Assembly: GCA_030531135.1 (NCBI GenBank)
Contig: JAUNOJ010000025.1
Location: 1 to 13,418 of the forward strand
Length of the DNA: 13,418 nt
Origin: Sutterellaceae bacterium
GTDB lineage: Bacteria > Pseudomonadota > Gammaproteobacteria > Burkholderiales > Burkholderiaceae_F
Direction: 5' to 3'
The position numbers and the translations under genes are program-made. The notes below the pieces were generated by a model. The model did no database searches. It saw nothing but the letters and a program-made list of their open reading frames with translations, and was not told where the DNA came from. This document shows positions 1 to 13,196 of this stretch, one piece after another (within the stretch, counting starts at the first letter, position 1; the number at the start of each line of letters is the position of its first letter).

Positions 1-132
1 GCCAACCGCTTGTGTACTTCGAGTGAAATCGCCGCTTATGAGACGATGAAACTCGGTTACACCAACGTCATGCAGATGCCAGAAGGCATTTACGGATGGA
101 AAATGAGCGGTCGCCAGTACGAACTGCCTTAA
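1..132 (+). CDS. Rhodanese-like domain protein, C-terminal end (partial)
   Basis: The open frame entering from the left edge encodes 43 residues ending at a TAA at 130-132. The tail reads AAYETMKLGYTNVMQMPEGI followed by YGWKMSGRQYELP, which is the typical end of a rhodanese domain: helix after the active-site loop, a GYTNV-type strand, then an EGG-like turn and a GW motif. In this family the catalytic cysteine lies in a short loop just before the helix; here the visible loop starts ANR, so the cysteine, if present, would be immediately upstream of the window. The cysteine that is visible (residue 5, in NRLCTS) is not at the usual position. Rhodanese domains carry or transfer sulfane sulfur. 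Its placement 53 bases ahead of a periplasmic isomerase in the same direction suggests cotranscription with the respiratory genes. Whether the full protein is exported cannot be seen. Confidence 0.75.
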   Translation, partial: ANRLCTSSEIAAYETMKLGYTNVMQMPEGIYGWKMSGRQYELP

Positions 133-185
133 GATTACGTTGGATTACGTCGAAGACGTGACAAAAACATTTGAGTAGAAGTTTT

Positions 186-950
186 ATGTTTACCCTGAAA
201 AAAATCGTGTTGTGCTCCTGCGCTGCTTTGTGTGCGAGCTCTATGGCCTTTGCCGCAGGCATCGAAACGCAGCAGGACAAGGAAGCTTACAGCATGGGGG
301 CTTCTGTCGGTAACTACGTGGCCGAGCAAATCGCCTCTCAGACCAAAATGGGTGCCAAGGTTGACGCCGCACTTGTTGCCAAGGGCTTCGAAGAAGCTTT
401 GGCCGGCAAGAGCCAGTTGACCAAGGACGATGTGGTCAAGTACCTCAACAGTCGTGCCGAAAAGCTCAACAAGCTTTACGAGGCAGCCCAGAAGAAGTTG
501 GCCGAGGAAAATTCTGCAAAAGCCAAAGACTTTTTGGCCAAGAACGCCAAGAAAAAGGGCGTGAAGACCACTGAGTCCGGCTTGCAGTACGAAGTGCTCA
601 AGGCCGGTAAGGGTGAAAAACCCAGAACCGAAGATGTTGTCACGGTGGATTATGTCGGTACTTTGATGGACGGTACGGTTTTCGAAAGTACCTATGAAAC
701 CAAAGAACCCGCACGCTTTGTTTTGATGAGTGTGATTCCCGGACTCGAAGAAGGCATCCGCATGATGGAACCCGGTGCGCGCTATCGTTTCACGATTCCC
801 GCGAACTTGGCATACGGTGCGGACGGCGCAGGTCAGATTCCTCCGGAATCTCCCCTGGTTTTCGAGTTGCAATTGGTCAAGGTTGAGAAAGTCAAAGCTC
901 ATTCGAACTTTGGCAATGCCAATCTGAAAGGAATGGTCAGCCCTCACTAA
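186..950 (+). CDS. Periplasmic FKBP-type peptidyl-prolyl cis-trans isomerase (FkpA/Mip-like)
   Basis: A 254-residue protein with an N-terminal Sec signal (MFTLKKIVL, hydrophobic core, cleavage near SMAFA-AG about residue 23), an all-helical Mip/FkpA-type dimerisation domain (about 25-125, with the family's YSMGASVGNYVAEQ start) and a C-terminal FKBP domain (about 145-234). FKBP hallmarks seen are VDYVGTLMDGTVFEST, VIPGLEEGI, IPANLAYG and LVFELQLVKV. The Trp normally at the base of the proline pocket (PGW) is Leu here (PGLEE), which may weaken isomerase activity while leaving chaperone function. I chose ATG 186 over an in-frame TTG at 171 because the signal peptide starts there; neither has a strong ribosome site. 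The gene lies first in a run with NrfG-, NrfC- and NrfD-like genes. A prolyl isomerase gene (mccB) follows the cytochrome gene in the Wolinella mcc locus, so a role in folding a periplasmic multihaem enzyme is inferred. Confidence 0.88.
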   Translation: MFTLKKIVLCSCAALCASSMAFAAGIETQQDKEAYSMGASVGNYVAEQIASQTKMGAKVDAALVAKGFEEALAGKSQLTKDDVVKYLNSRAEKLNKLYEAAQKKLAEENSAKAKDFLAKNAKKKGVKTTESGLQYEVLKAGKGEKPRTEDVVTVDYVGTLMDGTVFESTYETKEPARFVLMSVIPGLEEGIRMMEPGARYRFTIPANLAYGADGAGQIPPESPLVFELQLVKVEKVKAHSNFGNANLKGMVSPH

Positions 951-990
951 TCTGAGGTTTGTCCAAGCTCTTTAAAAAGCAGGGAGTTAG

Positions 991-1641
991 ATGAACGGTT
1001 TAACAGCTTTGATAGCTGCGGTTGTTGTCATTGTCGCAGTCGGTGCGATTATCTATCGCACCGTCTGTGGCCGCACGACAAAAAACACACTGTTCATCGC
1101 GAGTTTCACCGGGCTCGTTCTTGTCGTCAGTGTTTGCTTGTATGCAACGCTCGGGCGATGGTCCGATTACGGCGTGAAAAAAGTCGATGAAGAAACCGAC
1201 TATTTGCTCACCGCCAAGATCACGCAAGCTCAAAGGCAAGTGAAAAACATGCCCAAGAGCCTGACGGCACAACAGGAACTGGCTCAGGCCTATCTCGAAG
1301 CCGGTCGATATAAAGAAGCAGCCGAAACGTATGACGTCTGTCTGACGTTGGGCGGGGACCAAATCGACCTCATGGGTAAAAAGGCATATGCCCTTTACTA
1401 CAGAGACGGCAGAAAGATCGGTGAAGAAACTCGACAATTGATCGATACGATTCTGGCCAAGAATCCTTTGGAAGTTCAAACCAGAATGCTTTTGGGACAG
1501 GATGCTTTCATGCACGAACGTTACCAAGAAGCGATCGGTCAATGGAAAATGCTTCTGGATTCAGGAGCGGCTCCCGGGCAAAGAAGAGCCCTTGAAAACG
1601 CGATTGCCAATGCCGAGCAAAAGGCTCGGATGAAGGACTAA
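991..1641 (+). CDS. Membrane-anchored TPR protein, NrfG/CcmI-like cytochrome c maturation factor
   Basis: This 216-residue protein has two predicted membrane helices (about 4-22 and 33-52) joined by a loop of about ten residues (RTVCGRTTKN), followed by a soluble, presumably periplasmic, TPR-like region (about 75-210) with repeats such as LTAQQELAQAYLEAGRYKEA and RMLLGQDAFMHERYQEAIGQ. In the CcmHI/NrfG family, the TPR part grips the C-terminus of apocytochrome c and presents it to the CcmF/NrfE haem lyase. The two-helix anchor matches CcmI, but CcmI usually has a much longer cytoplasmic loop. ATG 991 is preceded by GGAG at 983-986. It stands 40 bases after the isomerase gene and 49 before the NrfC-like gene. 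The partner lyase genes lie about 6 kb downstream (7557-9925), so the trio is split. The assignment rests on architecture and context; TPR sequence alone is weak evidence. Confidence 0.72.
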   Translation: MNGLTALIAAVVVIVAVGAIIYRTVCGRTTKNTLFIASFTGLVLVVSVCLYATLGRWSDYGVKKVDEETDYLLTAKITQAQRQVKNMPKSLTAQQELAQAYLEAGRYKEAAETYDVCLTLGGDQIDLMGKKAYALYYRDGRKIGEETRQLIDTILAKNPLEVQTRMLLGQDAFMHERYQEAIGQWKMLLDSGAAPGQRRALENAIANAEQKARMKD

Positions 1642-1680
1642 TTGGTGGATTTTGACCGAATAAGGACAAAATCTGTCTGT

Positions 1681-1684
1681 GGAG
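1681..1684 (+). promoter_or_regulatory. Ribosome binding site deciding the nrfC-like start
   Basis: GGAG lies six bases before GTG at 1691. An in-frame GTG at 1679 has no comparable site and overlaps this one, so 1691 is the likelier start; it also places the twin arginine at residues 7-8. Confidence 0.6.
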
Positions 1685-1690
1685 AATATT

Positions 1691-2380
1691 GTGAGCGAAA
1701 AGATCGACAGGAGAAAATTTCTCGCTGGTGCCGGTGCTGCAAGCTCTTTGCTCGTGCTCCCGTTAGCGGGTTGCGGTACGGGCGGAAAGCAGGCCGGTGG
1801 CGATCAGCCGCACTATGCGATGGTCTTTGACCAGAACAAGTGTGTCGGTTGTCGCGACTGCCGAGATGCCTGCAATGAAACGAACAAGTTGCCCAAGGGC
1901 CGCTCTCGTTTGTTGCTCGAATTGCAGGGTGGTAAGGTCGAAGGCGAACGCGGTTATGCCGCCGAACGTCGCTACGTTCGTGTTTCTTGCCAGCAGTGCA
2001 AGGACGCGCCTTGCGTTACGGTTTGCCCGACGGGTGCTGCCTATCGCGATGCCAAGACCGGCATCGTGACGATGGATCCCAGCAAGTGCGTCGGTTGCAA
2101 GTACTGTATCGTGGCTTGCCCCTACAACGTACGTTATATCAATGAGGAAACCAAGGTTGCCGACAACTGCGACTTCTGCCTGCACTCTCGTTTGGAAAAG
2201 AACGAAGAACCTGCATGCGTGGAAAGCTGCAAGTACGACGCCTTGATCTTCGGTGACATCAAGGATCCGAAGTCCTATGTAAGCAGACTGTTGGCCGTGA
2301 AGGATTCCGTGCGCATTCGCCCGGAACTCGGCACCGAACCCAGCCTGCGCTACATTCCCATTGTTAAGAAAGGAGTGTAA
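1691..2380 (+). CDS. nrfC: NrfC-like Tat-exported 4x[4Fe-4S] electron transfer protein (SirC/MccC type)
   Basis: The 229-residue protein begins with a twin-arginine signal (DRRKFLAG, residues 6-13) and has four cysteine groups, 16 cysteines in all, placed as in NrfC: 51/54/57/61 (CVGCRDCRDAC), 100/103/108/112 (CQQCKDAPCVTVC), 133/136/139/143 (CVGCKYCIVAC) and 160/163/176/180 (CDFC ... ACVESC). It would hold four cubane clusters in the periplasm and carry electrons from the membrane quinol dehydrogenase encoded directly downstream (two bases between the genes) to a periplasmic cytochrome. An extra cysteine (28) follows LPLAG, a good lipobox, so it may be a Tat lipoprotein; E. coli NrfC lacks this. 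Start GTG 1691 is preferred on its ribosome site. Family assignment is strong; the actual terminal reductase (sulfite, nitrite or other) is inferred from context. Confidence 0.93.
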   Translation: MSEKIDRRKFLAGAGAASSLLVLPLAGCGTGGKQAGGDQPHYAMVFDQNKCVGCRDCRDACNETNKLPKGRSRLLLELQGGKVEGERGYAAERRYVRVSCQQCKDAPCVTVCPTGAAYRDAKTGIVTMDPSKCVGCKYCIVACPYNVRYINEETKVADNCDFCLHSRLEKNEEPACVESCKYDALIFGDIKDPKSYVSRLLAVKDSVRIRPELGTEPSLRYIPIVKKGV

Positions 2381-2382
2381 AG

Positions 2383-3309
2383 ATGGACATGAACTTTACA
2401 CTTGGCTTGACACAGGGTATCAGCTGGCCGTGGCCCATCGCCCTCTATCTGTTTTTGGCAGGTATTTCGGGCGGTGCAGTGGCAGTAGCCATTATTCTGA
2501 ACCTGTATCGTAAGCAGACTGCGCAGAACACGCCGGTTTTGAAGGCTGCAACGCTCATTGGCGCTGTGACCATCATCCTCGGTATGGTTTGCTTGGTCTT
2601 GGACTTGACCAATCCGCTGGTTTTCTGGCGCATTTTGGTTTATTACAACCTGACCTCGGTGATGAGCTTGGGCGTGATCGCTCTGCTCTTCTACATCCCC
2701 TTGGTCTGCATCCTCACGCTGGTTGCACTTCGTCAGGAAGTGAAGAACAGTTTCTTGGGGTTCCTCGACGGCTTGATCGGCTGGTTTGACAGCCATCGTT
2801 GCGGTCTGCAGTGGATCGTGTTGGTGCTCGCACTGACGATCTGCGCATACACGGGCTTCCTCATCTCTGCTCTGATCCGCTTCCCGTTGATCAACCAGGC
2901 TGTGTTGCCGGCTTTGTTCGTCGCCTCCGGTCTTTCTGCCGGTGCCGCCGCTGCCAAGATGATTGCTGTCGGTGTGTTCGGTGACGACGCCCATAGCGCA
3001 GACTTGAAGTTGTTGCACGGCGCCGAATGGCCGATTATGGCTGCCGAAGCATTGTGCATCTTCATGATCGCTGTTGCTTTGATCAGCGGCAACGCTGCAG
3101 CTCAGGTCGCTGCTCAGGCCTTCTGTACGGGTCCGTGGGCAACCGAGTTCTGGGTCGGTGTGGTTGGTGTCGGCTTCATTTTGCCGATCCTGTTTAACTT
3201 CATGAAGGCAAGTGCCGCGACGCTTTATCTGTCCGGTCTTGCATCTGTTGCCGGCATGATGTGCTTGCGACTCTTCATCCTGTACGCCGGCCAGCTCTAT
3301 AGCCTCTAA
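2383..3309 (+). CDS. nrfD: NrfD-like integral membrane quinol dehydrogenase (SirD/MccD type)
   Basis: This 308-residue protein is hydrophobic throughout, with about eight membrane helices, and opens with WPWPIALYLFLAGISGGA, the NrfD/PsrC family signature near the first helix. Its length is close to E. coli NrfD (about 318). NrfD-type subunits oxidise menaquinol without haem and pass electrons to the partner FeS protein, here the NrfC-like product encoded two bases upstream. ATG 2383 follows AGGAG at 2371-2375 with seven bases between; a second in-frame ATG at 2389 is less well placed. The gene is the last before an intrinsic terminator at 3336-3385, so it closes the first transcription unit. 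NrfD paralogues serve nitrite, sulfite, polysulfide and tetrathionate reductases, so substrate cannot be read from this gene alone. Confidence 0.92.
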   Translation: MDMNFTLGLTQGISWPWPIALYLFLAGISGGAVAVAIILNLYRKQTAQNTPVLKAATLIGAVTIILGMVCLVLDLTNPLVFWRILVYYNLTSVMSLGVIALLFYIPLVCILTLVALRQEVKNSFLGFLDGLIGWFDSHRCGLQWIVLVLALTICAYTGFLISALIRFPLINQAVLPALFVASGLSAGAAAAKMIAVGVFGDDAHSADLKLLHGAEWPIMAAEALCIFMIAVALISGNAAAQVAAQAFCTGPWATEFWVGVVGVGFILPILFNFMKASAATLYLSGLASVAGMMCLRLFILYAGQLYSL

Positions 3310-3335
3310 GCTGTGTGAGTTGACATAAGTCAGTG

Positions 3336-3385
3336 AAGGGCTTCGGTCCGCACGCTACTCGTAGTGGTGCGGCCGGGGCCTTTTT
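3336..3385 (+). terminator. Intrinsic terminator after the nrfD-like gene
   Basis: A GC-rich hairpin has left arm GGCTTCGGTCCGCAC (3339-3353) and right arm GTGCGGCCGGGGCC (3367-3380), paired with one bulge and two G-U pairs. CTA/TAG in the loop extends it, and five T residues follow (3381-3385). It divides the isomerase-to-nrfD unit from the copper and haem maturation genes; partial read-through is possible, since all later genes face the same way. Confidence 0.82.
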
Positions 3386-3427
3386 CCATATCAAAATCTT
3401 GAATTCGTCTTTGTGGAAGTTTGATCC

Positions 3428-3928
3428 ATGGTCAAAAAATTGATGTTAACAATGCTGGGTGCCTTGATGCTCGGTGTCGGGCTTCAAAACGCAACGGCTG
3501 CGCAACCAGATGCCGTTGCACTCACGGAAAAAGACCAATGTGCCTCTTGCGGGATGTGGGTTACCCGCTATCCCGGTCCCAAGGGCGAAATGATTCAAGA
3601 AGACGGCTCGGCTTTGAAATACTGTTCGGCTCGCGGCATGGCCTGCGAGTATTTAAAGTTGGATTCAGCCGCTCAGATTAAAGTTAAAGCGCTGTATGTA
3701 CACAATGCCCACGGCAACGATTGGAAAAAGCCCGATGATGCGCTTTTTATCGATGCCAAAGAGGCTTGGTACGTTTACGGCTCCTCCATGAAGGCCGTGA
3801 TGGGGCCCTCGTTGGCGCCCTTTGCCGATCGCGAATCGGCTCAAGCTTTTCAAAAACAATACGGCGGGACGTTGTATCGTTTCGAGGATTTGACCCGAGA
3901 AATTCTCGGTTGTAAAGAACGCAATTGA
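3428..3928 (+). CDS. nosL: NosL-family copper chaperone, soluble periplasmic form (first of two)
   Basis: A 166-residue protein with a Sec signal peptide (MVKKLMLTML, cleavage near ATAA-Q about residue 25) and the NosL core. The copper motif CASCGM lies at 38-43, followed by YPGPKGEM, a KYCS segment (Cys66), and the conserved AWYVYGSSMKAVMGP and ESAQAFQKQYGG blocks. NosL proteins bind Cu(I) in the periplasm and deliver it, with NosDFY, to a copper enzyme. Unlike typical NosL it has no lipobox cysteine, so it should be released into the periplasm. A third cysteine pair (66, 73) is present. ATG 3428 follows GGAAG at 3415-3419. The next gene, ten bases downstream, is a second NosL. In Wolinella, the NosL-like MccL accompanies the haem c-copper sulfite reductase, which supports a copper-loading role here even though no nosZ is seen. 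Confidence 0.88.
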   Translation: MVKKLMLTMLGALMLGVGLQNATAAQPDAVALTEKDQCASCGMWVTRYPGPKGEMIQEDGSALKYCSARGMACEYLKLDSAAQIKVKALYVHNAHGNDWKKPDDALFIDAKEAWYVYGSSMKAVMGPSLAPFADRESAQAFQKQYGGTLYRFEDLTREILGCKERN

Positions 3929-3938
3929 AACTGTTGCC

Positions 3939-4427
3939 ATGAAAAAAGTTTTCGTCATTTTGGCTGCAGCCGGCGTACTCTTGACCGGTTGCGGGGAAGA
4001 TTCCAAAAAGCAAACCTTTACGCCGGTTGCTTTTGATGCGCACGACAGATGCAATCTGTGCGGCATGGTGATTTCTCACTACGAAGGTCCCAAGGCAGAA
4101 CTTTTCATCAAGGGCGCCGAAGACACGGCTGTGAAATTTTGCTCGGGACGCGATGCGTTTACTTTTGCCCTGCAGCCTGAAAATGCCCGTCGTTTGCTCG
4201 CGTTTTTCGTGCACGATTTAGGTGAGACCTCTTGGGCCATGCCCGAGGATAAGGCGCTCATTGATGCAACGAAAGCAACCTATGTTTACGGACACGATCA
4301 AGCCGGCGTGATGGGCAACGAACCTGCGGCATTTTCGACCAAAGAAAGCGCGCAAGCCTTTGTCGAAAAGCACGGCGGCAAGATCTATTCTTATGCCGAC
4401 ATCACGTTGGAACTTCTCGACAAATAA
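3939..4427 (+). CDS. nosL: NosL-family copper chaperone lipoprotein (second of two)
   Basis: A 162-residue protein with a lipoprotein signal (MKKVFVILAAAGVLLTGC, lipobox LTGC, acylated Cys18), as in most NosL. The CNLCGM motif is at 38-43, the same positions as in the upstream paralogue, and is followed by HYEGPKAEL, KFCS, ATYVYGHDQAGVMGNE and ESAQAFVEKHGG. The two proteins align without large gaps, so they are probably an old tandem duplication, though they have diverged well beyond a recent copy. After the lipobox the next residues are GED, so an Asp at +2 (inner membrane retention) is not present; outer membrane sorting is possible. No clear ribosome site precedes ATG 3939. It is 12 bases from the nosD start, forming one unit with nosDFY. 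Confidence 0.92.
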   Translation: MKKVFVILAAAGVLLTGCGEDSKKQTFTPVAFDAHDRCNLCGMVISHYEGPKAELFIKGAEDTAVKFCSGRDAFTFALQPENARRLLAFFVHDLGETSWAMPEDKALIDATKATYVYGHDQAGVMGNEPAAFSTKESAQAFVEKHGGKIYSYADITLELLDK

Positions 4428-4429
4428 TC

Positions 4430-4435
4430 GGTGAT
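4430..4435 (+). promoter_or_regulatory. Probable ribosome binding site for nosD
   Basis: GGTGAT can pair perfectly with the ATCACC stretch of the 16S rRNA 3' end and lies four bases before GTG 4440. The alternative in-frame GTG at 4431 sits inside this element and has no site of its own. Confidence 0.45.
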
Positions 4436-4439
4436 CGGC

Positions 4440-5777
4440 GTGAAGACGAGACATTGTTTGTTCGCGGTGACTTTCTTGACGGCAATGCTCGGCACTGCCG
4501 AGGCTGCGCATATTCGCGTCACGCCCGCCGACGATGTTGCCAAGATTGTGGAGTCCGCCAAAGAGGGCGACGTCATCGAATTTTCGCCCGGCGTCTACAA
4601 GACCAATCTTGTCGTGCGTACTTCCGTCACATTGACCGGAACGCACGAGGCCGTGATCGACGCTCAAGGCAAGGGCTCGGGCATCATGGTGCGCTGGCCC
4701 AAGGCACGCGTTGAAAATCTGACGGTGAAAAACTTCGGCGCGAGTCTTTACGATCGCAATGCCGGGGTGCGCGTCACCGACGGGGCCGACGATGTCGTGA
4801 TTAAAAACATGGTGATCGAGGGACCGGCCTTCGGGATTCGTGCCGACCGATTAAATCGCTTGACTGTCGAAGATTGCAAAATTACCGGGATTGCCAAAAA
4901 GAAACTTTTGGATCGCGGCGACGGCGTTTATCTCAATTATGTGCGCTACCCCAAATTGACGGGCAACGTCGTCAAGGACACGCGCGACGGATTTTATTTT
5001 GAAAACGTCGACGGCAGCGTTTCGCGCGAAAATGCTTTTTCGGGTGGCCAGTACGGCATTCATTACATGTATACCAGAAACGATTCCGGGTATGACAACT
5101 TCACGACGGGAGCCGTGGGCGGGTACGCCTTGATGAGTTCAAGACAAGTGAAGCTTGAGCGCAATACGGCCGTCGATTCGGTGGAATTCGGCATCTTGGT
5201 CAACGTCTGCGAGCGATGCACCGTAACCGGCAATCGTGTCGAGGGCGTCTACAACCCCAAGGGCAAGGCCGTTTTGGATACCGAAGGCAAGGCGCTTTTC
5301 ATCTACGGACCCGGTGCAAGCACCGTGACCGGCAACTACTTTGCCGATGCGCAAATCGGCGTGGGCGTGGCCATGGGCGGCGAGGGTGTGAAGATGAGTC
5401 AAAACGCTTTTGTGGACAATCGCATTCAGGTGCGCTATGTCGGCAAAACCGCTTTGGAGTGGAGCGTTGCCGGCAAAGGCAATTATTGGAGCACTTTTAT
5501 GGGGTGGGACTTTGACGGCGACGGATTGGCCGAAAAGCCCTATCAGCCCAACGACAGCCTCGATCGCATTTTCTGGATTTATCCGGAAGCCCGTTTTTTG
5601 ATGGACAGTCCCGTGGTGGCATTGCTGCGTTGGCTTGCCCTGCAGTTTGAAATTGATCGCGGCAAAGGTATCACCGACAGTCATCCCTTGATCAAGTGTC
5701 CGGAAATTGTGGGCGCTCAAGGCCGTTTTGCATCCGGATTTCCCCATGCCGATGCGTCCCAATCAACCGCTCCGTAA
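4440..5777 (+). CDS. nosD: NosD-like periplasmic right-handed beta-helix protein of copper ABC system
   Basis: With the GTG start at 4440 the product is 445 residues: a Sec signal (about 1-22, VKTRHCLFAV to TAEA-A), then a long parallel beta-helix built of CASH/PbH1-type repeats, with phrases such as VIKNMVIEGPAFGIRADRLN, GDGVYLNYVRYPKLTGNVV, GFYFENVDGS, GGQYGIHYMYTRND and GNYFADAQIGVG, and a C-terminal GNYWSTFMGWDFDGDG block typical of NosD. The length is normal for the family. NosD works with the NosFY ABC transporter to supply copper (or a sulfur species) to periplasmic copper sites; in N2O reducers this is the CuZ site. A start at 4431 would add three residues. The gene is between nosL and nosF. 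Here the likely client is a copper-containing cytochrome, not NosZ, but this is inference. Confidence 0.92.
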   Translation: MKTRHCLFAVTFLTAMLGTAEAAHIRVTPADDVAKIVESAKEGDVIEFSPGVYKTNLVVRTSVTLTGTHEAVIDAQGKGSGIMVRWPKARVENLTVKNFGASLYDRNAGVRVTDGADDVVIKNMVIEGPAFGIRADRLNRLTVEDCKITGIAKKKLLDRGDGVYLNYVRYPKLTGNVVKDTRDGFYFENVDGSVSRENAFSGGQYGIHYMYTRNDSGYDNFTTGAVGGYALMSSRQVKLERNTAVDSVEFGILVNVCERCTVTGNRVEGVYNPKGKAVLDTEGKALFIYGPGASTVTGNYFADAQIGVGVAMGGEGVKMSQNAFVDNRIQVRYVGKTALEWSVAGKGNYWSTFMGWDFDGDGLAEKPYQPNDSLDRIFWIYPEARFLMDSPVVALLRWLALQFEIDRGKGITDSHPLIKCPEIVGAQGRFASGFPHADASQSTAP

Positions 5778-5781
5778 GCCC

Positions 5782-5786
5782 AAGGA
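5782..5786 (+). promoter_or_regulatory. Ribosome binding site deciding the nosF start
   Basis: AAGGA lies seven bases before ATG 5794. Earlier in-frame start codons from 5707 on would overlap nosD and lack such a site. Confidence 0.65.
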
Positions 5787-5793
5787 AAGAATC

Positions 5794-6681
5794 ATGACCG
5801 AAATTGCAGTCGTCTGCGAAAACCTCGTTTTCAAGCGCGCAGACAGAGCCTATTTGGACGATGTGACGTTTTCTTTACCCCAAGGCAAACTCATGGGGTT
5901 GATCGGACACAACGGTGCCGGCAAGTCGACGTTGCTCAAAGTCATTTTGGGACTGTTAAAGCCTTTTTCGGGCACTGTAACAGTGTTGGGGAGTCAACCG
6001 GGTACTCAACCCTTACAGGTGGGGTATTTGCCCGAGAACGTGAGTTTTTACAATCACATGACGGTGCAAGATCACCTCGATTACTTTGCGGGTTTAAAAC
6101 GCGTAAATGCCGCTCGCATCCGAGAGCTTTCCGACGAGTTGGGGTTGGCAGAGGTGGCCAAACAAAAACTCGGACAATGCTCCAAAGGCCAAAGACAACG
6201 TTTGGGCTTGGCGCAAGCACTGTTGACGCGCCCCAAACTGTTGATTTTGGACGAACCCACCGTGGGGCTTGATCCGGCAGCTTCTCTGTTGATGTACCGA
6301 GAGCTTTCGAAGCTTCGCGACTCGGGCTGTTCGGTGATTGTCTGTACACACGAATTGGCGTTGGTGGAGTCGTATTTGGATACGGCGCTTTTATTGGCCC
6401 ACGGCAAGATGCGTGCTTTCGGGGCGTTGCATGAATTGAGTCGTCAAGCCGATTTGCCGGTCAGTGTTTTGCGCGTGGGCAATGCCCAAGCTTTGAAAGA
6501 CGATCGTTTTGCCGGTTGCGTTGTCGGCGACGGTTTGCGCGTACCCGAACATCGCTTGAGCGAGGTGCTGGAAATCTTAACGCAGACGTATCGTTGCTTT
6601 GATTTTGAAGTAAAAAAAGCCGATCTCGGCGAAATTTTCAGGCACTTTGTGCTTGAAGACCAAACGGTCAAGGGGAAGTAA
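5794..6681 (+). CDS. nosF: NosF-like ABC transporter ATP-binding protein
   Basis: This 295-residue cytoplasmic ATPase shows Walker A GHNGAGKST (38-46), the NosF-type PENVSFYNHMT segment (80-90), an ABC signature CSKGQRQRLGLAQALL (129-144, with SKGQ where most ABC proteins have SGGQ, as is usual in NosF), Walker B LLILDEPTVGLDP (149-161) and switch histidine in VCTHEL (His186). A C-terminal extension of about 80 residues follows the ATPase core, a normal feature of the NosF/CcmA-like group. It would energise the NosY permease encoded three bases downstream, and work with the periplasmic NosD. ATG 5794 is chosen for its ribosome site 16 bases after the nosD stop. Confidence 0.93.
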   Translation: MTEIAVVCENLVFKRADRAYLDDVTFSLPQGKLMGLIGHNGAGKSTLLKVILGLLKPFSGTVTVLGSQPGTQPLQVGYLPENVSFYNHMTVQDHLDYFAGLKRVNAARIRELSDELGLAEVAKQKLGQCSKGQRQRLGLAQALLTRPKLLILDEPTVGLDPAASLLMYRELSKLRDSGCSVIVCTHELALVESYLDTALLLAHGKMRAFGALHELSRQADLPVSVLRVGNAQALKDDRFAGCVVGDGLRVPEHRLSEVLEILTQTYRCFDFEVKKADLGEIFRHFVLEDQTVKGK

Positions 6682-6684
6682 AAA

Positions 6685-7485
6685 ATGTCGAGCATTTTGA
6701 TTGTGGCGAAAAAAGAATTTCGCGATTGCTTGGCAAGCCGTTGGCTGGTCTTCGGCTCGCTTTTGTTTGCCATTTTGTCGGTGGCGGTCTTTTTCGGAAC
6801 GGCGGCCATCGGCGGCTCGTTACAGTATCAGCCCTTGGCAACGGTCATGAGCTCATTGCTGAGTTTGACGGTGTTTTTGTTGCCGCTCTTGGCGCTTTTG
6901 TTGTGTTACGACGCTTTTGTGGGCGAAGACGAATCGGGCACGCTTTTGTTGATGCTCACTTATCCGATTTCCCGCACCCAATGGCTTTTGGGCAAGGCTC
7001 TCGGTCAGGGCGCGGCGCTTTTGGCTGTTTTGGTTTTGGGCTTTTTGGCTTTGCCGGTCATTCAGCTGGCTTTGGCCGTGCCGTATTCGATGGCCGATCT
7101 CTTGAAATCTTTGGCTGTGCTGGTCGTCAGCGGCTGGGGCTTGGGCGTGATTTTCATGCTCGTTGCCTACTGGGTGAGCTTGTCGGTTCGTCACAAAGCG
7201 CAGGCTTTGGCATTGCTTTTGGTCGTGTGGTTCGTTTCGGTTCTTCTTTACGATTTGGCTCTGTTGGTGATTTCGGTGGCCGGTGCCGACTTCTTTAGCC
7301 GCGAGACGCTCACGGCTTTAATGCTTGCCAATCCGGCGAGCGTCTTTCGACTGCTCAATCAGTCCGTGCTCGGCGTCGTGACCTTCAAGATTCCTTCGGT
7401 CGGCGTCTTGGCAGGCGTACTCGCGGTTTGGATTGTTGTGCTCTTTGCGATTTGCCGAACGGTTTTTGTCAGAAGAAAACTGTGA
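6685..7485 (+). CDS. nosY: NosY-like ABC transporter permease
   Basis: A 266-residue membrane protein of the ABC-2 permease type. It starts with IVAKKEFRDCLASRWLV, the cytoplasmic coupling segment characteristic of NosY, has about six membrane helices, and carries the family's YDAFVGEDESGTLLLMLTYP segment with the following RTQWLLGKALGQ between helices two and three. Two copies with two NosF would form the membrane channel that NosD docks on. Start ATG 6685 lies three bases after the nosF stop, with a GGGGAAG ribosome site inside the end of nosF. The 71 bases that follow are AT-rich and carry only the ribosome site of the next gene. Confidence 0.92.
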   Translation: MSSILIVAKKEFRDCLASRWLVFGSLLFAILSVAVFFGTAAIGGSLQYQPLATVMSSLLSLTVFLLPLLALLLCYDAFVGEDESGTLLLMLTYPISRTQWLLGKALGQGAALLAVLVLGFLALPVIQLALAVPYSMADLLKSLAVLVVSGWGLGVIFMLVAYWVSLSVRHKAQALALLLVVWFVSVLLYDLALLVISVAGADFFSRETLTALMLANPASVFRLLNQSVLGVVTFKIPSVGVLAGVLAVWIVVLFAICRTVFVRRKL

Positions 7486-7544
7486 GACCTTCAGCGCAAA
7501 ACAAGGAAAATTCGCTAAAGTAATTTATTGATTTTTACCTTCGA

Positions 7545-7549
7545 AAGGA
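7545..7549 (+). promoter_or_regulatory. Ribosome binding site for the TTG start of the haem lyase gene
   Basis: AAGGA lies seven bases before TTG 7557. The product then starts MIPELGHF, the canonical CcmF/NrfE N-terminus, so the TTG start is well supported. Confidence 0.75.
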
Positions 7550-7556
7550 AAGCATC

Positions 7557-9464
7557 TTGATTCCCGAACTCGGACATTTTCTTTTGGCGCTTGCCGCGAT
7601 TGCAGCCCTTTTCGGCGCCGCCGCCGTGTATTGGGGAATTCTGAAAAGCCGGACAACCTGTTCGGGGCTTTGGCGATTCGTCACACCCGTGACCGCCCTG
7701 TCTTTGACGGCGAGTGCCGCCACGTTGATCTACGCGTTTTTGACTGATGATTTTTCGGTGCGCTACGTGGCCGATCACTCCAACACGCAGTTGGAGACGA
7801 TTTATAAGTTTGCCGCACTCTGGGGCAGTCACGAAGGCTCGATGTTGCTGTGGGTTGTCTTGATTGCCTTGTGGGCTTTGGGTGCCGGGCTTGCCAATAC
7901 GCTTCGCACGCATGACGACGAGTTGATGGCCAAAATTCAGTGCGTCATGCTCTTTATTGTGGGGCTCTTTAGCGCCTTTTTGTTGGCAACATCCAATCCC
8001 TTTATCCGCAACCTTCCGTTGGTGCCGCCCGAAGGGCGAGATTTGAATCCGATTTTGCAAGACATCGGCATGATTTTGCACCCGCCCGTGCTTTTTATGG
8101 GCTACGCCGGTTTGGCGCTTTGCTTTGCCGCAGCCGTTGCTCTGCTTTGGAAGGGCGAATGGTCCAAAACGGCGCTGCGGTTTTGCACCGTTTCGGTCAT
8201 CGTCACTTGGATCTTTTTAACGGCGGGTAACGCCCTGGGTTCTTGGTGGGCTTATACCGAACTCGGTTGGGGCGGTTGGTGGTTCTGGGATCCTGTGGAA
8301 AACGCTTCCTTTATTCCGTGGCTGGGGACGTCAGCCTTGTTGCATGCACTTTTGATGGCGTGCTACAAAGGTGAAATGAAACGCCTGTGCGTGGCTTTGA
8401 TGTTGGTGTGCTTTGCGTTTTGCTTGCTCGGCACCTTTATCGTACGCTCGGGCGTGATGGCATCCGTGCACGCCTTTGCTTCGGATCCCAATCGCGGTGT
8501 GGCGATCATGGTCGTATCTCTTTTGGTCTTGGTGCCGGCCCTCGTCTTGTATTGCCTGCGCATCGATCGCGTCTGCCAAAAGAGCGAAGCCGAATTGACC
8601 AACGCCGATATTTTGATGACGGCTGGCGTCTATCTGCTTGTTGTTGCCACCGTGGCCGTTTTGATCGGCACCGTCTATCCGCTTTTCCACGACATGTTGG
8701 GCTTGGGCAGTCTGACGGTGGGGGCGCCCTACTTCAACAGTTTCTTTGCACCGATGACAATCATTGCCGCAGCGATGATCGGCGTCGTTCAGTTGATGCG
8801 TTTGAAAGAACTGTGGCCTGCGGTGCTGTGTGCAAGTTTGACCGTCGGTGCATCCGTGGTGGCCGTGTGTTTGACCGAGCCGCGAGACACTTGGATGACG
8901 TTGGCGGGGTTTGCCGGTGCCTTTTGGATTTTCTTTACGTTGATTGCCAACCTTTTTGCCGGCAAAGCGAGAATGACGGCAGCCGCCTTGACGGCGCATG
9001 CGGCTGTGGCCGTGTGCATGATCGGCGCCACGGGATCGACCCAATACGAACAAGAAGCCCTGGTGCGTATGGCGCCCGGCACGGGGCGTCCGATGGCAGA
9101 CATTGTCTTTGTGCATACCGATACTTATAAGGTCAACACACATGCGTACTTTGGCGACGCTGCGCGCATCGAAGTGTTGGATGCTAAGGACGAGACGATG
9201 GAAACGGTTCTGTTTCCGATGCGTCAAACCTTTATCAGCACCGGCATGCAGATGTCGGCGGCAGGCATCCGTCATGGTTTGTGGCGAGACTATTACGTTT
9301 CGATGGGCAATCAACTCTCGCAAACCGAGTGGCTTGTGCGCTTGAGTATCAAACCTTTGGTGAGTTGGCTTTGGTTGGGGGCGGCCTTGATGATGCTCTC
9401 GGGTGTTTTGGTTTTGGTGCGCCGTCGCAAGAGTTTTGAAATGAGTGAGGAGTCGACCCGATGA
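7557..9464 (+). CDS. nrfE: CcmF/NrfE-family cytochrome c haem lyase subunit
   Basis: A 635-residue membrane protein with about 14 helices. It has the tryptophan-rich haem-handling motif WGGWWFWDPVEN (238-249) and the family histidines: His92 in SHEGS, His175 in LHPPVLFMGY, His263 after the WWD motif, His305 in SVHAFASDPNRG and His481 in the late membrane segment. The ends are typical too: MIPELGHF at the start, and GIRHGLWRDYYVSMG followed by a final helix at the end. CcmF/NrfE joins haem to apocytochrome c thiols in the periplasm. It overlaps the NrfF-like gene by four bases (ATGA), as in nrfEF operons. Because the cluster holds no ccmABCDE genes, it is likely a dedicated lyase for an unusual haem site in one client cytochrome, relying on general Ccm genes elsewhere. 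In Shewanella, SirE plays this part for SirA. Start codon is TTG. Confidence 0.93.
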   Translation: MIPELGHFLLALAAIAALFGAAAVYWGILKSRTTCSGLWRFVTPVTALSLTASAATLIYAFLTDDFSVRYVADHSNTQLETIYKFAALWGSHEGSMLLWVVLIALWALGAGLANTLRTHDDELMAKIQCVMLFIVGLFSAFLLATSNPFIRNLPLVPPEGRDLNPILQDIGMILHPPVLFMGYAGLALCFAAAVALLWKGEWSKTALRFCTVSVIVTWIFLTAGNALGSWWAYTELGWGGWWFWDPVENASFIPWLGTSALLHALLMACYKGEMKRLCVALMLVCFAFCLLGTFIVRSGVMASVHAFASDPNRGVAIMVVSLLVLVPALVLYCLRIDRVCQKSEAELTNADILMTAGVYLLVVATVAVLIGTVYPLFHDMLGLGSLTVGAPYFNSFFAPMTIIAAAMIGVVQLMRLKELWPAVLCASLTVGASVVAVCLTEPRDTWMTLAGFAGAFWIFFTLIANLFAGKARMTAAALTAHAAVAVCMIGATGSTQYEQEALVRMAPGTGRPMADIVFVHTDTYKVNTHAYFGDAARIEVLDAKDETMETVLFPMRQTFISTGMQMSAAGIRHGLWRDYYVSMGNQLSQTEWLVRLSIKPLVSWLWLGAALMMLSGVLVLVRRRKSFEMSEESTR

Positions 9465-9925
9465 CAATGCGAAAGAGCTTTAAGAACTGGCTTTGGGTTG
9501 TGTCCTTTGCGTTGACGGCGGTTTTGACTTCGCAAGCTTCACTGGCGCAAAGTGCACCTGCCGCACAAAATCCGCAGACCGAGCAAAGTGCAACTAAACC
9601 GGCCGGTTTAAGCGGAAAGGCGCTTTATGACGAAGCTATTTCGATTTCCAAACTGTTGCGCGATCCGGCCTCTGCCAACTACACGCTGTTTGATTCGGAA
9701 AGTGCGATTGCCGGCGAACTGAAAGCGCGTATTTACGAGATGTTGCGCGAAGGTAAAACCAGGGAAGAGATTTTTGATTTTATGGTGGCTCGCTACGGCG
9801 AGATGATTCGCTACGAGCCCGACTTCAATGCCAAGACGGCGCTTCTTTGGATGGCGCCTTGGGCAGTGTTGATCGCCGGCGACGTGCTCCTTGTTTTGAG
9901 AATGCGTCGGCGTGTCAAGAAATAA
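9461..9925 (+). CDS. nrfF: NrfF/CcmH-like protein lacking the redox CxxC
   Basis: This 154-residue protein has a signal sequence (about 1-29, cleavage near SLAQ), a Pro/Gln/Ala-rich linker (30-48), a helical domain and one C-terminal membrane helix (about 129-147) ending in RMRRRVKK. The helical domain clearly matches CcmH/NrfF: ELKARIYEMLREGKTREEIF, DFMVARYGEMIRYEPDF and a KTALLWMAPW block. Where the family has RCLVCQNQ, this protein has RDPASANY (residues 67-74), in register, so both active-site cysteines are lost; the whole protein contains no cysteine. CcmH normally reduces apocytochrome disulfides or accepts thiols from them. Here that job could be left to the thioredoxin encoded next, while this protein keeps a structural role with the haem lyase. 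ATG 9461 follows GAGGAG at 9447-9452. Confidence 0.85.
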   Translation: MTMRKSFKNWLWVVSFALTAVLTSQASLAQSAPAAQNPQTEQSATKPAGLSGKALYDEAISISKLLRDPASANYTLFDSESAIAGELKARIYEMLREGKTREEIFDFMVARYGEMIRYEPDFNAKTALLWMAPWAVLIAGDVLLVLRMRRRVKK

Positions 9926-9955
9926 GCCGATTGGCACTACGAACACGAATTTGCT

Positions 9956-9960
9956 AGGAG
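9956..9960 (+). promoter_or_regulatory. Ribosome binding site deciding the thioredoxin start
   Basis: AGGAG lies eight bases before ATG 9969. The longer frame from 9912 would overlap the NrfF-like gene and would put polar sequence before the signal peptide. Confidence 0.7.
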
Positions 9961-9968
9961 AAAAAACA

Positions 9969-10598
9969 ATGAAAAAGACACTTTTGATGTGCGCTATGCT
10001 CTTGGGCTTGCAGTGCGCGACAGTGGGCTCGGCCGTGAGCGCCGATCTTCCGGGCTTTCAGGTCAAGACCTGCGAAAACGGCGATCCCATTGCCGAAAAG
10101 CCGGGCGTGTTGCTCGACTTCATCGAACTGCGTCATGCGCGCGGGTTTTCCAAGGCCGTGCTCAAGGACCTGGAAGGCAAGAGCCATGCTTTAAACGGCT
10201 ATAAGGGCAAGTTGGTAATGGTCGACGTTTGGGCGACGTGGTGCGAACCCTGCATTCGCTCGTTGCCGGCCATTAAAAAGCTCCAAGATCGCTACAACAA
10301 CGATCCCAAGAGCGATATTCAAATCGTGTCGGTCTCGGTGGACAGGACCGTAGACGAAGTGAAGAAATTCCTGAAGTTGCACAATATTCAAGGTTTTGAT
10401 TCTCTCATCGATCCGCAGCAGCTCTTGGGCAACGACATGCCCATGGACGTGGTTCCGTCCGTGTTTATGGTGGACGGTCAGGGCAATTTGGTCGGGTTTG
10501 TTCGCGGCTTCGTCGATTGGGCCGACGATTCGGTGCACGGCTATTTGACCGCCTTGGCAAAGAAATATGCCAAGCGCGACGGTGACATCGTGAACTGA
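9969..10598 (+). CDS. Periplasmic TlpA/ResA/CcmG-like thioredoxin-fold protein
   Basis: A 209-residue protein with a Sec signal (MKKTLLMCAMLLGLQ, cleavage near VSA-D about residue 25), a stretch of about 35 residues unlike thioredoxin, and then a thioredoxin fold (about 60-200). The active site is WCEPC (91-95) in the VDVWATWCEPCIRSLPAI context, and the cis-proline is Pro163 in VVPSVFMVDG. The WCEPC dipeptide is the one found in ResA and many CcmG/TlpA proteins, which reduce apocytochrome c disulfides before haem attachment. It is the last gene of the plus-strand run, 43 bases after the cysteine-free NrfF-like gene, and is the only thiol-disulfide protein visible among the maturation genes. 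An additional cysteine at 35 lies outside the core. No membrane anchor or lipobox is seen, so it should be soluble in the periplasm. Confidence 0.9.
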   Translation: MKKTLLMCAMLLGLQCATVGSAVSADLPGFQVKTCENGDPIAEKPGVLLDFIELRHARGFSKAVLKDLEGKSHALNGYKGKLVMVDVWATWCEPCIRSLPAIKKLQDRYNNDPKSDIQIVSVSVDRTVDEVKKFLKLHNIQGFDSLIDPQQLLGNDMPMDVVPSVFMVDGQGNLVGFVRGFVDWADDSVHGYLTALAKKYAKRDGDIVN

Positions 10599-10673: not shown

Positions 10674-13196
10674 TCAGAAGCTGAAGAAGTCTTTGACGCT
10701 TTGCCACAAACTCTTCGTTTCTTCCTTGGGTTTGGGCGTTTCGGTGGGCTTAGCCACTTCCACAGGGGGCTTACCTTGCGCACGGCGCAGTGCCGTATTG
10801 GCTTGGGTCCATCCGAATTGCCAGTGCGGTGCGGAAGCCAAACCGGAAATGTCAGCCGTGATATGCACCGACGGAATGCCGTGCATGGGCGAGAACGTGT
10901 TTTGAACGTTGGCTTTGAGTTCGCCGGTTTGCAAATTGACGACGGCCTGAGCGGAAGACTTCAAAGCGATGCCGCGAGCGGAGATTTTGGAAATCGTCAT
11001 CGTGACGCCGTCGATGTCGACATTGGCCGTGGCTTCGTCCAAAGCGGTTTGAGCGCCCTGGCGCGTCACTGCCTCTTCACTGCCGGCACCGACAATAAAG
11101 TTACGGGCGGCTTGCGCGTCCACGCCGTTGTATGCGGCACGCAAAACACGAACCTGTGCCTGACCTTTGAGCGTTGTCGGATCGTCGCCCGTACCCGACA
11201 GGGTCAAATGGCCGCTCGTGACACCCGAAAGGGTCGGTGCGGTTTCAAAACCTGTGAGAATCTTGGCTAAGCTTACGCCGTCCAACTTACCTTCAAAGTT
11301 CCAAGAAGTATCTTCGTTAAATTCGCCGTTACCGGTCAGACGGCCGTCAGCGGTGTTGACGATCATATCGGTGAGCGTGGCCTTGCCGTCGAATAAGGCC
11401 AAATCGCAGTGCAGTTGCGTGGCCGAAAGCTGACGCCACAAAATCTGACCGACACGCAAAGAACCGTCGAAATTGACTTTGTGCATCCAATCGAGCGACT
11501 GGAATGCCGGAACGGTGGCGGTATTGATTTCGCCGATCATCAATTCGCCGGCAAACTTCGGCTGAGACAATTGCGAAACGACGCCGTTATAAGAAAACGG
11601 CGCATTGGCAAATGAGCCCGATAAGCCCACTTTGGCAGAGTCGGCGACGTGATCCACATGGATAAAGCCTGAAAGCGAGGCGGCAAAGTCGACCGGCAAC
11701 GTCGGATCTCCCGTGACCGTCACGCGAGAGGCAAAGTTTTCCAAGTCGGTTTTGTGATTGACAAGATCTGCTTTGACAGCGCTCGTGATTTCCAGAGTCG
11801 TGGTGCGCGTTTCGCTTTCCTTGGCGTAGGACAAACGCAATTCGGGGCTTTCAAAAACACCCGGACGGAGTCTGAAGTCCACTGCACCGAGGTGCACGTC
11901 GCCCGAGAGTTGTTGCGGACGAGAAAGTGCAGCCGTGGCGTTGTTGCCCGAAACTTCTTCATCCTTAAAACGGATGCGATCGGCCGTTGCGACAACCGTG
12001 AAAGGTTCGGAAGCAATCGTCGTTTCACCCGAGAAACGCACGTCTTCAAAGACGACATAGCGGTCTTGAGACGAAATGGTGAGCGTGCCCTTGGCAGAAA
12101 AAGCGCCCGAACTTGTTTCCGGATTAAAGCTCAGGAAAATGGCTTCATTTTGAATAAAGTCGGGAGCTGCGGCATAAACGGGGTCGATCCCCAGTGTTTG
12201 CCACAAGGAAACGGTCGGCTCGGCAGGCGTTTCCGGAACTGTGGCAGGCGCCGTTTCATCGGTTGGCTGACTCGTTTGGTCTTGAGCCGGCGTTTCTACA
12301 GACGGAGTATTGGCGTCGGTCGGAGCCTGTGCCGGTGCTTCGACGTTTTCGGGCGCTTCATTGACATAAGCCTTGTCGGAATCGATGGGGGCTTTGTCGC
12401 TCGTTTCGGCAACGGAGTCTTCTTCCGGTGTTTGTTCCGAGGCAGATTGCGGAGCCGTTTCGGGAGCGCTTTCAGGGGCTTGTTCTTGTGTTTCGGGCGT
12501 TACGACCGGTGCCGTTTGTTCTTGATTTTGCGGCGCTTCGTATGTTTTTTGCGCGGTTTCATCGGACACGGCAGGTGTCGTTGTAGAGATATCTGCGGTT
12601 GTTAAAGGGTCGAAACGAGCGGAAATTTCAAAGGGGGTGGTGACTTCCGGGGAGAACTTGCCCATCGAGACATAAAGGTCTGACAAGCGATAGCCGTAAT
12701 GCGTTTCGTGTGCCGTCACCGTCAAATCGAGTTTGGCGTTTTTAAACGTCACCGATTGGATGCGCAGATCGTCGGGGAATTTGATATTGGCAAAGGTGGC
12801 GTCGAAAAGGGCGTTTCCCGACAGTTGCGGTACGTCGAGCTTGCTTTCCAAGCCGGTTACGACGGCTGACTGCACCTGCACGGCACCCAAGGCCAGCGAC
12901 CACATCGAAACTTCGGCTTGGATGCCTGCCACGCGACCGATCACGACTTCCGGATTGTCTTTTTCAACAAAAGTCATGGCAGGCAGTTGCACCTGCATGG
13001 AACTCATGCGCGAAACTTTCACCGGGCCGTCGAAAACGACGGTTGCGCCCAAAGCTTTGGCCGACAAATCCTCTACGGTCTTTTTTACGGAGTCTTCGTT
13101 GACGCGATAAAAAAGAGCCGCAATAACACCGGCCACGGCCAGCGCGATAACAACGATGAAAATGAGCGCAAAGCGCAAAAGTCTGTTGGCAAACAT
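10674..13196 (-). CDS. AsmA-family inner-membrane-anchored protein with PETA-rich insert
   Basis: An 840-residue protein with one N-terminal membrane helix (about 8-30) followed by a large periplasmic part. The opening (helix, then LFYRVNEDSVKKTVEDLSAKALGA and VVFDGPVKVS) and the C-terminal region (GRLTGNGEFN, LSGVTSGHLTLSGTGDDPTT, LKGQAQVRVLRAAYNGVDAQ, and a tail with FSPMHGIPSVHITADISGLA) match AsmA-family proteins, which are long beta-groove proteins linked to phospholipid transport and outer membrane homeostasis. Residues about 200-330 (roughly 12210-12600) are a low-complexity stretch of Pro, Glu, Thr, Ala, Gln and Ser not usual for AsmA. The end is Lys/Pro-rich and finishes KSLWQSVKDFFSF, an amphipathic-looking segment. 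The gene faces the respiratory run and is probably unrelated to it. ATG is at 13196; no good ribosome site is visible upstream. Confidence 0.85.
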   Translation of the reverse strand: MFANRLLRFALIFIVVIALAVAGVIAALFYRVNEDSVKKTVEDLSAKALGATVVFDGPVKVSRMSSMQVQLPAMTFVEKDNPEVVIGRVAGIQAEVSMWSLALGAVQVQSAVVTGLESKLDVPQLSGNALFDATFANIKFPDDLRIQSVTFKNAKLDLTVTAHETHYGYRLSDLYVSMGKFSPEVTTPFEISARFDPLTTADISTTTPAVSDETAQKTYEAPQNQEQTAPVVTPETQEQAPESAPETAPQSASEQTPEEDSVAETSDKAPIDSDKAYVNEAPENVEAPAQAPTDANTPSVETPAQDQTSQPTDETAPATVPETPAEPTVSLWQTLGIDPVYAAAPDFIQNEAIFLSFNPETSSGAFSAKGTLTISSQDRYVVFEDVRFSGETTIASEPFTVVATADRIRFKDEEVSGNNATAALSRPQQLSGDVHLGAVDFRLRPGVFESPELRLSYAKESETRTTTLEITSAVKADLVNHKTDLENFASRVTVTGDPTLPVDFAASLSGFIHVDHVADSAKVGLSGSFANAPFSYNGVVSQLSQPKFAGELMIGEINTATVPAFQSLDWMHKVNFDGSLRVGQILWRQLSATQLHCDLALFDGKATLTDMIVNTADGRLTGNGEFNEDTSWNFEGKLDGVSLAKILTGFETAPTLSGVTSGHLTLSGTGDDPTTLKGQAQVRVLRAAYNGVDAQAARNFIVGAGSEEAVTRQGAQTALDEATANVDIDGVTMTISKISARGIALKSSAQAVVNLQTGELKANVQNTFSPMHGIPSVHITADISGLASAPHWQFGWTQANTALRRAQGKPPVEVAKPTETPKPKEETKSLWQSVKDFFSF
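12210..12600 (-). repeat. Low-complexity Pro/Glu/Thr/Ala/Gln-rich coding segment
   Basis: Within the AsmA-family gene, about 130 residues consist of recurring ET, AP, PET, QE and TP units (for example TPETQEQAPESAPETAPQ). The codons are kept varied and the reading frame stays open, so it is translated sequence, probably a flexible extended linker between the N-terminal domain and the rest. The repeats are irregular, with no fixed unit length. Confidence 0.7.

Follow-up and report, generated by a model that had tools for sequence, protein, structure and literature searches.

Introduction

Which respiratory enzyme is served by a run of genes that resemble the accessory genes of nitrite reduction (nrf) on the one hand and those of nitrous-oxide reduction (nos) on the other? 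This question is raised by a stretch of 13,418 bases (b) from a Sutterellaceae bacterium, presumably of the genus Duodenibacillus, which is the entire contig C189 of draft assembly G000 (403 contigs, 87.55% complete) and is called the window throughout; no sequence lies 5' of its position 1 on the contig. We argue, with a probability of about 0.94, that the window forms the downstream portion of a sulfite-respiration locus of the known sir/mcc kind, as predicted from its sequence; the reductase of this kind, MccA (SirA in Shewanella), is an octahaem c-type cytochrome and copper enzyme. An earlier note on this DNA had placed the window in an MccA/SirA-type sulfite locus, and this placement is upheld by the presence of MccA in the genome, the gene order in relatives, a tree of NrfC and NrfD and the co-occurrence of the haem lyase with MccA. 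The interest of the locus lies in its host group, in the constant rhodanese neighbour of MccA and in an operon with half of MccA, the latter two being more novel than the locus itself.

The MccA cytochrome and its probable linkage to the window

The earlier note held that the window lacks only the cytochrome, which should carry about seven CXXCH motifs plus one CX12-17CH motif. Such a cytochrome is present at the end of another contig of the same genome (C353:5260-7293), with 88% identity to the 687-residue open reading frame (ORF) of a relative that was used as query; the contig, of 7,295 b, ends just past this match, and the last MccA residues are lost at the contig end. The protein matches Wolinella succinogenes MccA (PDB 4rkm; residues 36-677, E 2.8e-204), the sole PDB sequence that matches it at E <= 0.001, and this match to a solved MccA settles the fold. 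It contains seven CXXCH motifs and the long-spaced motif CARTANAEQGVMNNKGCH, which can be read as CX15CH or, alternatively, as CX12NKGCH as in Shewanella SirA. The residues Y123, K208, Y285, R366 and K393 and the copper ligands C399 and C495, which we take to be the catalytic or copper-binding residues of Wolinella MccA, are all found at one constant offset of 12, and their columns are invariant in 12/12 aligned MccA proteins. As to the cytochrome, the note was thus right; what it overlooked is the C-terminus of a rhodanese-like protein at positions 1-132, the gene of which separates cytochrome and isomerase in relatives.

Because MccA lies on another contig than the window, its linkage to the window is deduced from relatives only. 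The window start aligns to the rhodanese-like ORF of the relatives, the gene start falling in the assembly gap, and the gap between the C353 end and the window start amounts to about 456, 453, 481 and 430 b when measured on L036, L037, L039 and L040, respectively; for L038 and L041, in which the beginning of the window is unaligned, the gaps of about 474 and 395 b are by extrapolation only. The mccA gene and the window would then most probably form one locus, lying about 0.45 kb apart across the assembly gap.

Gene order in relatives

Sixty-one genomes, including the one studied here, were searched with the window NrfD, giving a match in 24, and 20 same-family regions were fetched around the best NrfD matches. 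In 13 of these 20 regions, rhodanese, FKBP, NrfC and NrfD are preceded by a cytochrome with seven CXXCH and the long-spaced motif; the remaining seven comprise six with an operon of half-length MccA and one contig fragment spanning NosL to NrfE only. Moreover, when species genomes were scanned with an MccA alignment, 42 named loci were obtained, all with MccA by construction; they come from Sutterellaceae, one unclassified Burkholderiales, Shewanella, Ferrimonas and one Mucispirillum, the Sutterellaceae genera with MccA loci in the gut being Duodenibacillus, Sutterella, Parasutterella and Turicimonas. Rhodanese is found in 42 of the 42, FKBP in 41, NrfG in 39, NrfC in 36, NrfE in 36, NrfD in 35, NosL in 33, NosD in 33, NosF in 32, NosY in 32, NrfF in 31 and TlpA in 29, which are minimum counts because many loci end at contig or fetch borders. 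MccA, rhodanese, FKBP, NrfG, NrfC and NrfD occur all together in 33/42.

Phylogeny of NrfC and NrfD

The concatenated NrfC and NrfD tree has 42 rows, with E. coli Nrf as the sole outgroup row; 13 named loci taken as repeats of other genomes in the set were excluded, as was every locus in which the number of usable NrfC or of usable NrfD proteins was not one. In this tree the window groups with Duodenibacillus and Sutterella mcc rows (support 96/91) within a Sutterellaceae clade (100/100) that neighbours Shewanella sir (97/96). The comparison with MccCD/SirCD and NrfCD that the earlier note had proposed therefore places the pair with mcc of Sutterellaceae and sir of Shewanella and Ferrimonas, far from E. 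coli Nrf. The Sutterellaceae mcc rows do not form one clade (approximately unbiased test, p 0.0347) because pairs of the Ydh-type operon described below fall among them, and the position of the root is unsure because the branch of the sole outgroup is very long. An initial tree built from NrfD and distant NrfD-like outgroups was discarded, several of its rows having few aligned columns or very long branches.

Co-occurrence of the haem lyase with MccA

A high-scoring CcmF is present once in each of the ten genomes of the genus. In 8/10 there is also a second, NrfE-like lyase of lower score; these are exactly the eight with MccA (one of them being a contig-end fragment), and G000 correspondingly has two CcmF_C proteins, i.e. 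a dedicated haem lyase besides the general CcmF. By comparison, a PF02335 cytochrome is present in 10/10, including both genomes without MccA and without the second lyase; it has 7 CXXCH and 1 CXXCK in the four genomes checked, two of them without the second lyase. We presume it to be closer to an octahaem nitrite reductase (ONR) than to five-haem NrfA. That the second lyase tracks MccA and not the PF02335 cytochrome fits the observation in Shewanella that loss of sirEF abolishes the reduction of sulfite, not of nitrite (PMC6976685), and we infer that the lyase is specific for MccA.

Weighing of alternative explanations

One alternative is that lyase, chaperone and NrfCD serve nitrite reduction, maturing and feeding the NrfA/ONR-like CXXCK cytochrome, which is indeed present in G000, and the window lyase is NrfEF-like. 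However, this cytochrome is not beside the window nrfCD/nrfEFG genes as in an E. coli-type nrf locus; it lies on contig C256. It is moreover kept, CXXCK included, by the two congeners that lack both MccA and the second lyase, and the cytochrome next to the locus in relatives is MccA. The window NrfC/D/E are 48/36/37% identical to those of E. coli, as against 61-69/59-64/42-48% in four Shewanella and Ferrimonas loci. We consider this explanation very improbable. Still more improbable, in our judgement, is that the copper genes are nitrous-oxide reductase genes merely adjoining the rest. It is true that NosL, NosD, NosF and NosY, of which the window has homologues, are classic nos accessory genes, but a NosZ match by TIGR04246 (the other model, TIGR04244, was not searched) is found in only 1/10 genus genomes and not in G000, which is 87.6% complete, and NosL and NosY belong to 33 and 32, respectively, of the 42 named MccA loci, those of Shewanella included. 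None of the findings that by the earlier note would speak against a sulfite locus (an upstream nrfA, nosZ or molybdopterin reductase gene without an octahaem cytochrome nearby, or NrfCD grouping with another reductase family) was obtained.

A different kind of proposal is that the rhodanese is a working partner of MccA, the physiological reaction then being more than the conversion of sulfite to free sulfide. A rhodanese-like gene lies directly downstream of 44/44 MccA genes in the 42 named loci (L059-L100), 42 of the 44 proteins having a CX4C loop, so that at these loci the rhodanese is more constant than NrfC/NrfD, and a rhodanese also follows a divergent MccA2, described below, in 4/6 fetched Sutterella loci. 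Against this, the MccA2 locus L108 has no rhodanese (in L117 the contig ends before that point), the word does not occur in the accessible text of PMC6976685, and the one published rhodanese neighbour met in a limited literature check is that of distant SirA-like cytochromes in Dethiobacter (22-23% identity; PMC10376724). We regard the proposal as unlikely, yet less remote than the nitrite and nitrous-oxide explanations, and a role of any kind for the rhodanese in sulfite respiration is at best faintly suggested.

Several points weigh against the assignment of the window to sulfite respiration. MccA and the window are on separate contigs; sulfite as substrate is deduced from Shewanella and Wolinella; and the lyase might conceivably serve the PF02335 CXXCK cytochrome as well. 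In five named loci out of 42, all from Shewanella (L075, L076, L080, L081 and L082), NrfC and NrfD give no match, and SirA may there be fed by something else. Finally, among the seven genomes searched for NosL (G000, G004, G007, G001, G003, G029 and G033), no match is found in G029, a 99% complete Parasutterella with canonical MccA, nor in G033, which has only the divergent MccA2. G000, G004 and G007, which have MccA, each contain two copies of NosL, and none was found in G001 and G003, both without MccA; NosL thus tracks MccA in the five genus genomes searched, not beyond the genus. The pair of G007 (D. massiliensis) lies at C22:87564-88484, about 370 kb from the mcc locus. Since G029 and G033 give no match, the copper module is not strictly required, and the distribution of NosL counts against a strict copper-delivery role; the statement of the earlier note that sulfite loci combine an NrfCD-like quinol dehydrogenase and a special haem lyase with a NosL-type copper factor is valid here but not universally.

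Proposed pathway and comparison with known systems

By analogy with Shewanella and Wolinella, from which the direction of electron flow is also taken, the sulfite-respiration system would work as follows. The NrfD-like membrane protein MccD would oxidise menaquinol, the Fe-S protein MccC would pass the electrons to MccA, and MccA would reduce sulfite to sulfide in the periplasm. The NrfE/NrfF lyase, together with the NrfG-like chaperone and the TlpA-like reductase, would attach haem to the CX15CH motif, and the FKBP isomerase would aid the folding of MccA. NosL, NosD, NosF and NosY may supply or hold copper for the active site, a role that the evidence hints at weakly.

The locus resembles that of Wolinella through its cytochrome, MccA (PDB 4rkm, 4rkn), with a near full-length match, the 15-residue spacing of the atypical haem and alignment of the presumed active-site residues. 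The lyase there is CcsA1 (PMC6976685), whereas the window has NrfEF-like proteins. The sir locus of Shewanella oneidensis, sirAIGCDJKLM with sirEFH (PMC6976685), shares with the present locus SirA with CX12NKGCH (a 15-residue spacer), SirG, SirC, SirD, the SirEF lyase and the SirH thioredoxin; judging from gene order, sirJKLM of MR-1 would be the Nos-like genes, and the sir loci of other Shewanella species have homologues of rhodanese, FKBP, NosL, NosD, NosF and NosY too. The window differs from these loci in having two NosL genes, in having no SirR-like regulator among its genes and in the place of NrfE-NrfF-TlpA, which is downstream on the same strand, whereas in most Shewanella loci it is upstream on the opposite strand. 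With E. coli nrfABCDEFG the window shares homologous NrfC, NrfD, NrfE, NrfF and NrfG, but the identities are the low ones given above, NrfA is the reductase of that system and the annotation beside nrf shows no NosL/D/F/Y-like gene. With nos it shares the NosD, NosF, NosY and NosL homologues, and it differs in the missing TIGR04246 match and in its sir-type neighbours.

A half-MccA operon and a divergent MccA2

Contig C368 of G000 (= L004:45-5810) carries an operon whose YdhV-type oxidoreductase scores 867.7 bits against PRK09849 (cut-off 868); it further encodes a YdhW-like protein (95 bits, cut-off 203) and a 335-residue cytochrome that matches MccA from about residue 407 onward at 43-46% identity, i.e. 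its C-terminal tetrahaem half; its NrfC/NrfD are 61/64% identical to those of the window. Half-MccA ORFs of 336-418 residues amount to 12 genes in 9/67 family genomes, with four fragmentary matches in G088 and G089 uncounted. All except that of G090 were aligned (11/12; L004, L049-L054, L107, L111, L112 and L119). Each of the 11 has exactly three CXXCH; the CXXCH sites of haems 1-4 have no counterpart in it, and both copper cysteines are missing. The atypical motif is CX15CH in 9/11 and CX16CH in 2/11 (G083, G085): among the genomes examined, six have canonical MccA, and their genes show CX15CH in 9/9 cases; the two Sutterella genomes in which canonical MccA was not found have one pair of genes between them, both with CX16CH, and are related and thus not independent. 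That CX15CH tracks canonical MccA is a hint of a shared haem lyase. A 739-residue ORF behind the half-MccA operon of G083, considered as a lyase, matched no Pfam family.

An MccC/MccD-like pair (NrfC and NrfD) stands beside half-MccA in 10/11, the contig of the eleventh (L119) being cut, and branches within the Sutterellaceae mcc clade of the tree. There is an even chance, in our estimate, that a copy of the electron-wiring half of sulfite reductase was brought into a YdhV-type molybdo/tungsto-oxidoreductase operon of Sutterellaceae, the window lyase then having two clients. A 2026 classification places class V tungsten-type oxidoreductases in Sutterella and Parasutterella and describes cytochrome-containing subunits in the group; its relevant parts do not mention MccA (PMC13328260).

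As a separate observation, the divergent MccA2 (48-51% identity) is found at six fetched Sutterella loci (L108, L109, L110, L113, L117 and L118). In four of them (L109, L110, L113, L118) its neighbours are a rhodanese and an ABC ATPase, with a MacB/FtsX-type permease at both loci checked (L109, L110), and no NrfD lies within the six fetched stretches. All seven residues listed above are kept in the three aligned MccA2.

Significance for gut sulfur metabolism

A survey of human-gut sulfur genes gives Dsr and Asr as the two enzymes of the final sulfite-reduction step (PMC9016944). By term search, Sutterella does not appear in the accessible text of PMC9016944, PMC8564485 and PMC13232883, and the occurrences of 'mcc' or 'mccA' viewed there denote a gene of cysteine degradation or an author. 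According to a 2021 survey of NrfD-like subunits, MccD is present in 51 species, of which 35 are gamma- and 15 epsilonproteobacteria (PMC8076601). No publication on Sutterella with octaheme and sulfite was found in a literature check confined to an open-access library. In Duodenibacillus, MccA is present in 8/10 genomes and DsrA (TIGR02064) in 0/10. If active, MccA would make these gut Sutterellaceae a little-noticed sulfite sink and source of H2S. Xsc (TIGR03457) as an internal source of sulfite gave matches in 9/10 genus genomes, none over the cut-off, and is unsupported because all 14 control genomes also match below the cut-off.

Genes of the window and further observations

The genes named by the earlier note, all in one direction, were recovered by profile searches in the order it gave: the + strand has 12 complete genes and one truncated gene (Table 1). 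NrfC, NrfD, NrfF and NrfE score under the cut-offs of the nrf-specific NCBIfam models TIGR03149, TIGR03148, TIGR03147 and TIGR03145, which fits Sir-like rather than Nrf proteins without proving it; NrfE exceeds the cut-off of the subfamily model PRK10369 (416.1 bits, cut-off 394), and the TlpA-like protein matches ResA (PRK03147) at E 1.8e-21, under the cut-off of that model. The full-length rhodanese-like protein of a relative matches PF00581 at E 4.9e-10. The FKBP ORF is open from TTG 171, and the protein start is signal-peptide-like. The MccC/SirC-like protein has a Tat-like RRKFL start and four [4Fe-4S] cysteine groups. A promoter and terminator scan of the window gave nothing usable (promoter-like 1 against 6.2 expected, terminator-like 29 against 23.2 expected).

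Table 1. Features of the window, and the PF02335 cytochrome encoded elsewhere in the genome
Feature	Position	Strand	Basis or remark
Rhodanese-like protein, periplasmic, C-terminal 43 residues	1..132	+	frame 0 resembles C-terminus of ORF behind MccA in relatives
FKBP-type peptidyl-prolyl isomerase, ATG at 186	186..950	+	PF00254 E 2.5e-27, PF01346 E 2.7e-22
NrfG/SirG-like TPR apocytochrome chaperone	991..1641	+	PRK10370 E 5.6e-19, 68.6 bits, below cut-off 306
MccC/SirC-like (NrfC-like) protein	1679..2380	+	TIGR03149 E 4.2e-69; NrfC and NrfD tree
MccD/SirD-like NrfD-family membrane quinol dehydrogenase subunit	2383..3309	+	PF03916 E 2.8e-62; NrfC and NrfD tree
NosL-like protein 1, no lipobox seen	3428..3928	+	PF05573 E 2.2e-38
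NosL-like protein 2, lipoprotein-type start LLTGC	3939..4427	+	PF05573 E 1.6e-43
NosD-like periplasmic beta-helix protein	4431..5777	+	TIGR04247 354.4 bits, cut-off 300
NosF-like ABC ATPase, ATG at 5794	5794..6681	+	PF00005 E 1.7e-33
NosY-like ABC permease	6685..7485	+	PF12679 E 7e-29
NrfE/SirE-type haem lyase	7557..9464	+	PF16327 E 1.3e-58, PF01578 E 5.2e-40; co-occurrence with MccA
NrfF/CcmH-like thiol oxidoreductase	9461..9925	+	PF03918 E 1.8e-29
TlpA/ResA-like periplasmic thioredoxin, SirH-like, ATG at 9969	9969..10598	+	PF00578 E 3.4e-13
AsmA-family gene	10674-13196	-	convergent with locus, last gene on contig
PF02335 cytochrome, 563-residue frame	G000:C256 = L102:2409-4097		eight haem sites (7 CXXCH, 1 CXXCK)

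It is noted that an AsmA-family gene also adjoins the locus in the relatives L036 and L037. Among the Shewanella loci without NrfC/NrfD, the three inspected (L075, L080, L081) have NosL directly behind NrfG, and in two Ferrimonas loci (L084, L087) the MccA-rhodanese-FKBP-NrfG-NrfC-NrfD block occurs twice in tandem. In Turicimonas and Parasutterella, a sensor kinase with a phosphonate-binding-like domain lies behind the mcc locus (L046:17184-19668, L043:12772-14817), joined in L046 by a LuxR-type response regulator; the kinase, with the regulator in L046, is a candidate sulfite sensor. In Mucispirillum (L098:9854-19061), MccA is followed by a 699-residue ORF containing a rhodanese-like stretch and, farther on, by a 961-residue ORF that is weakly NrfE-like (26%).

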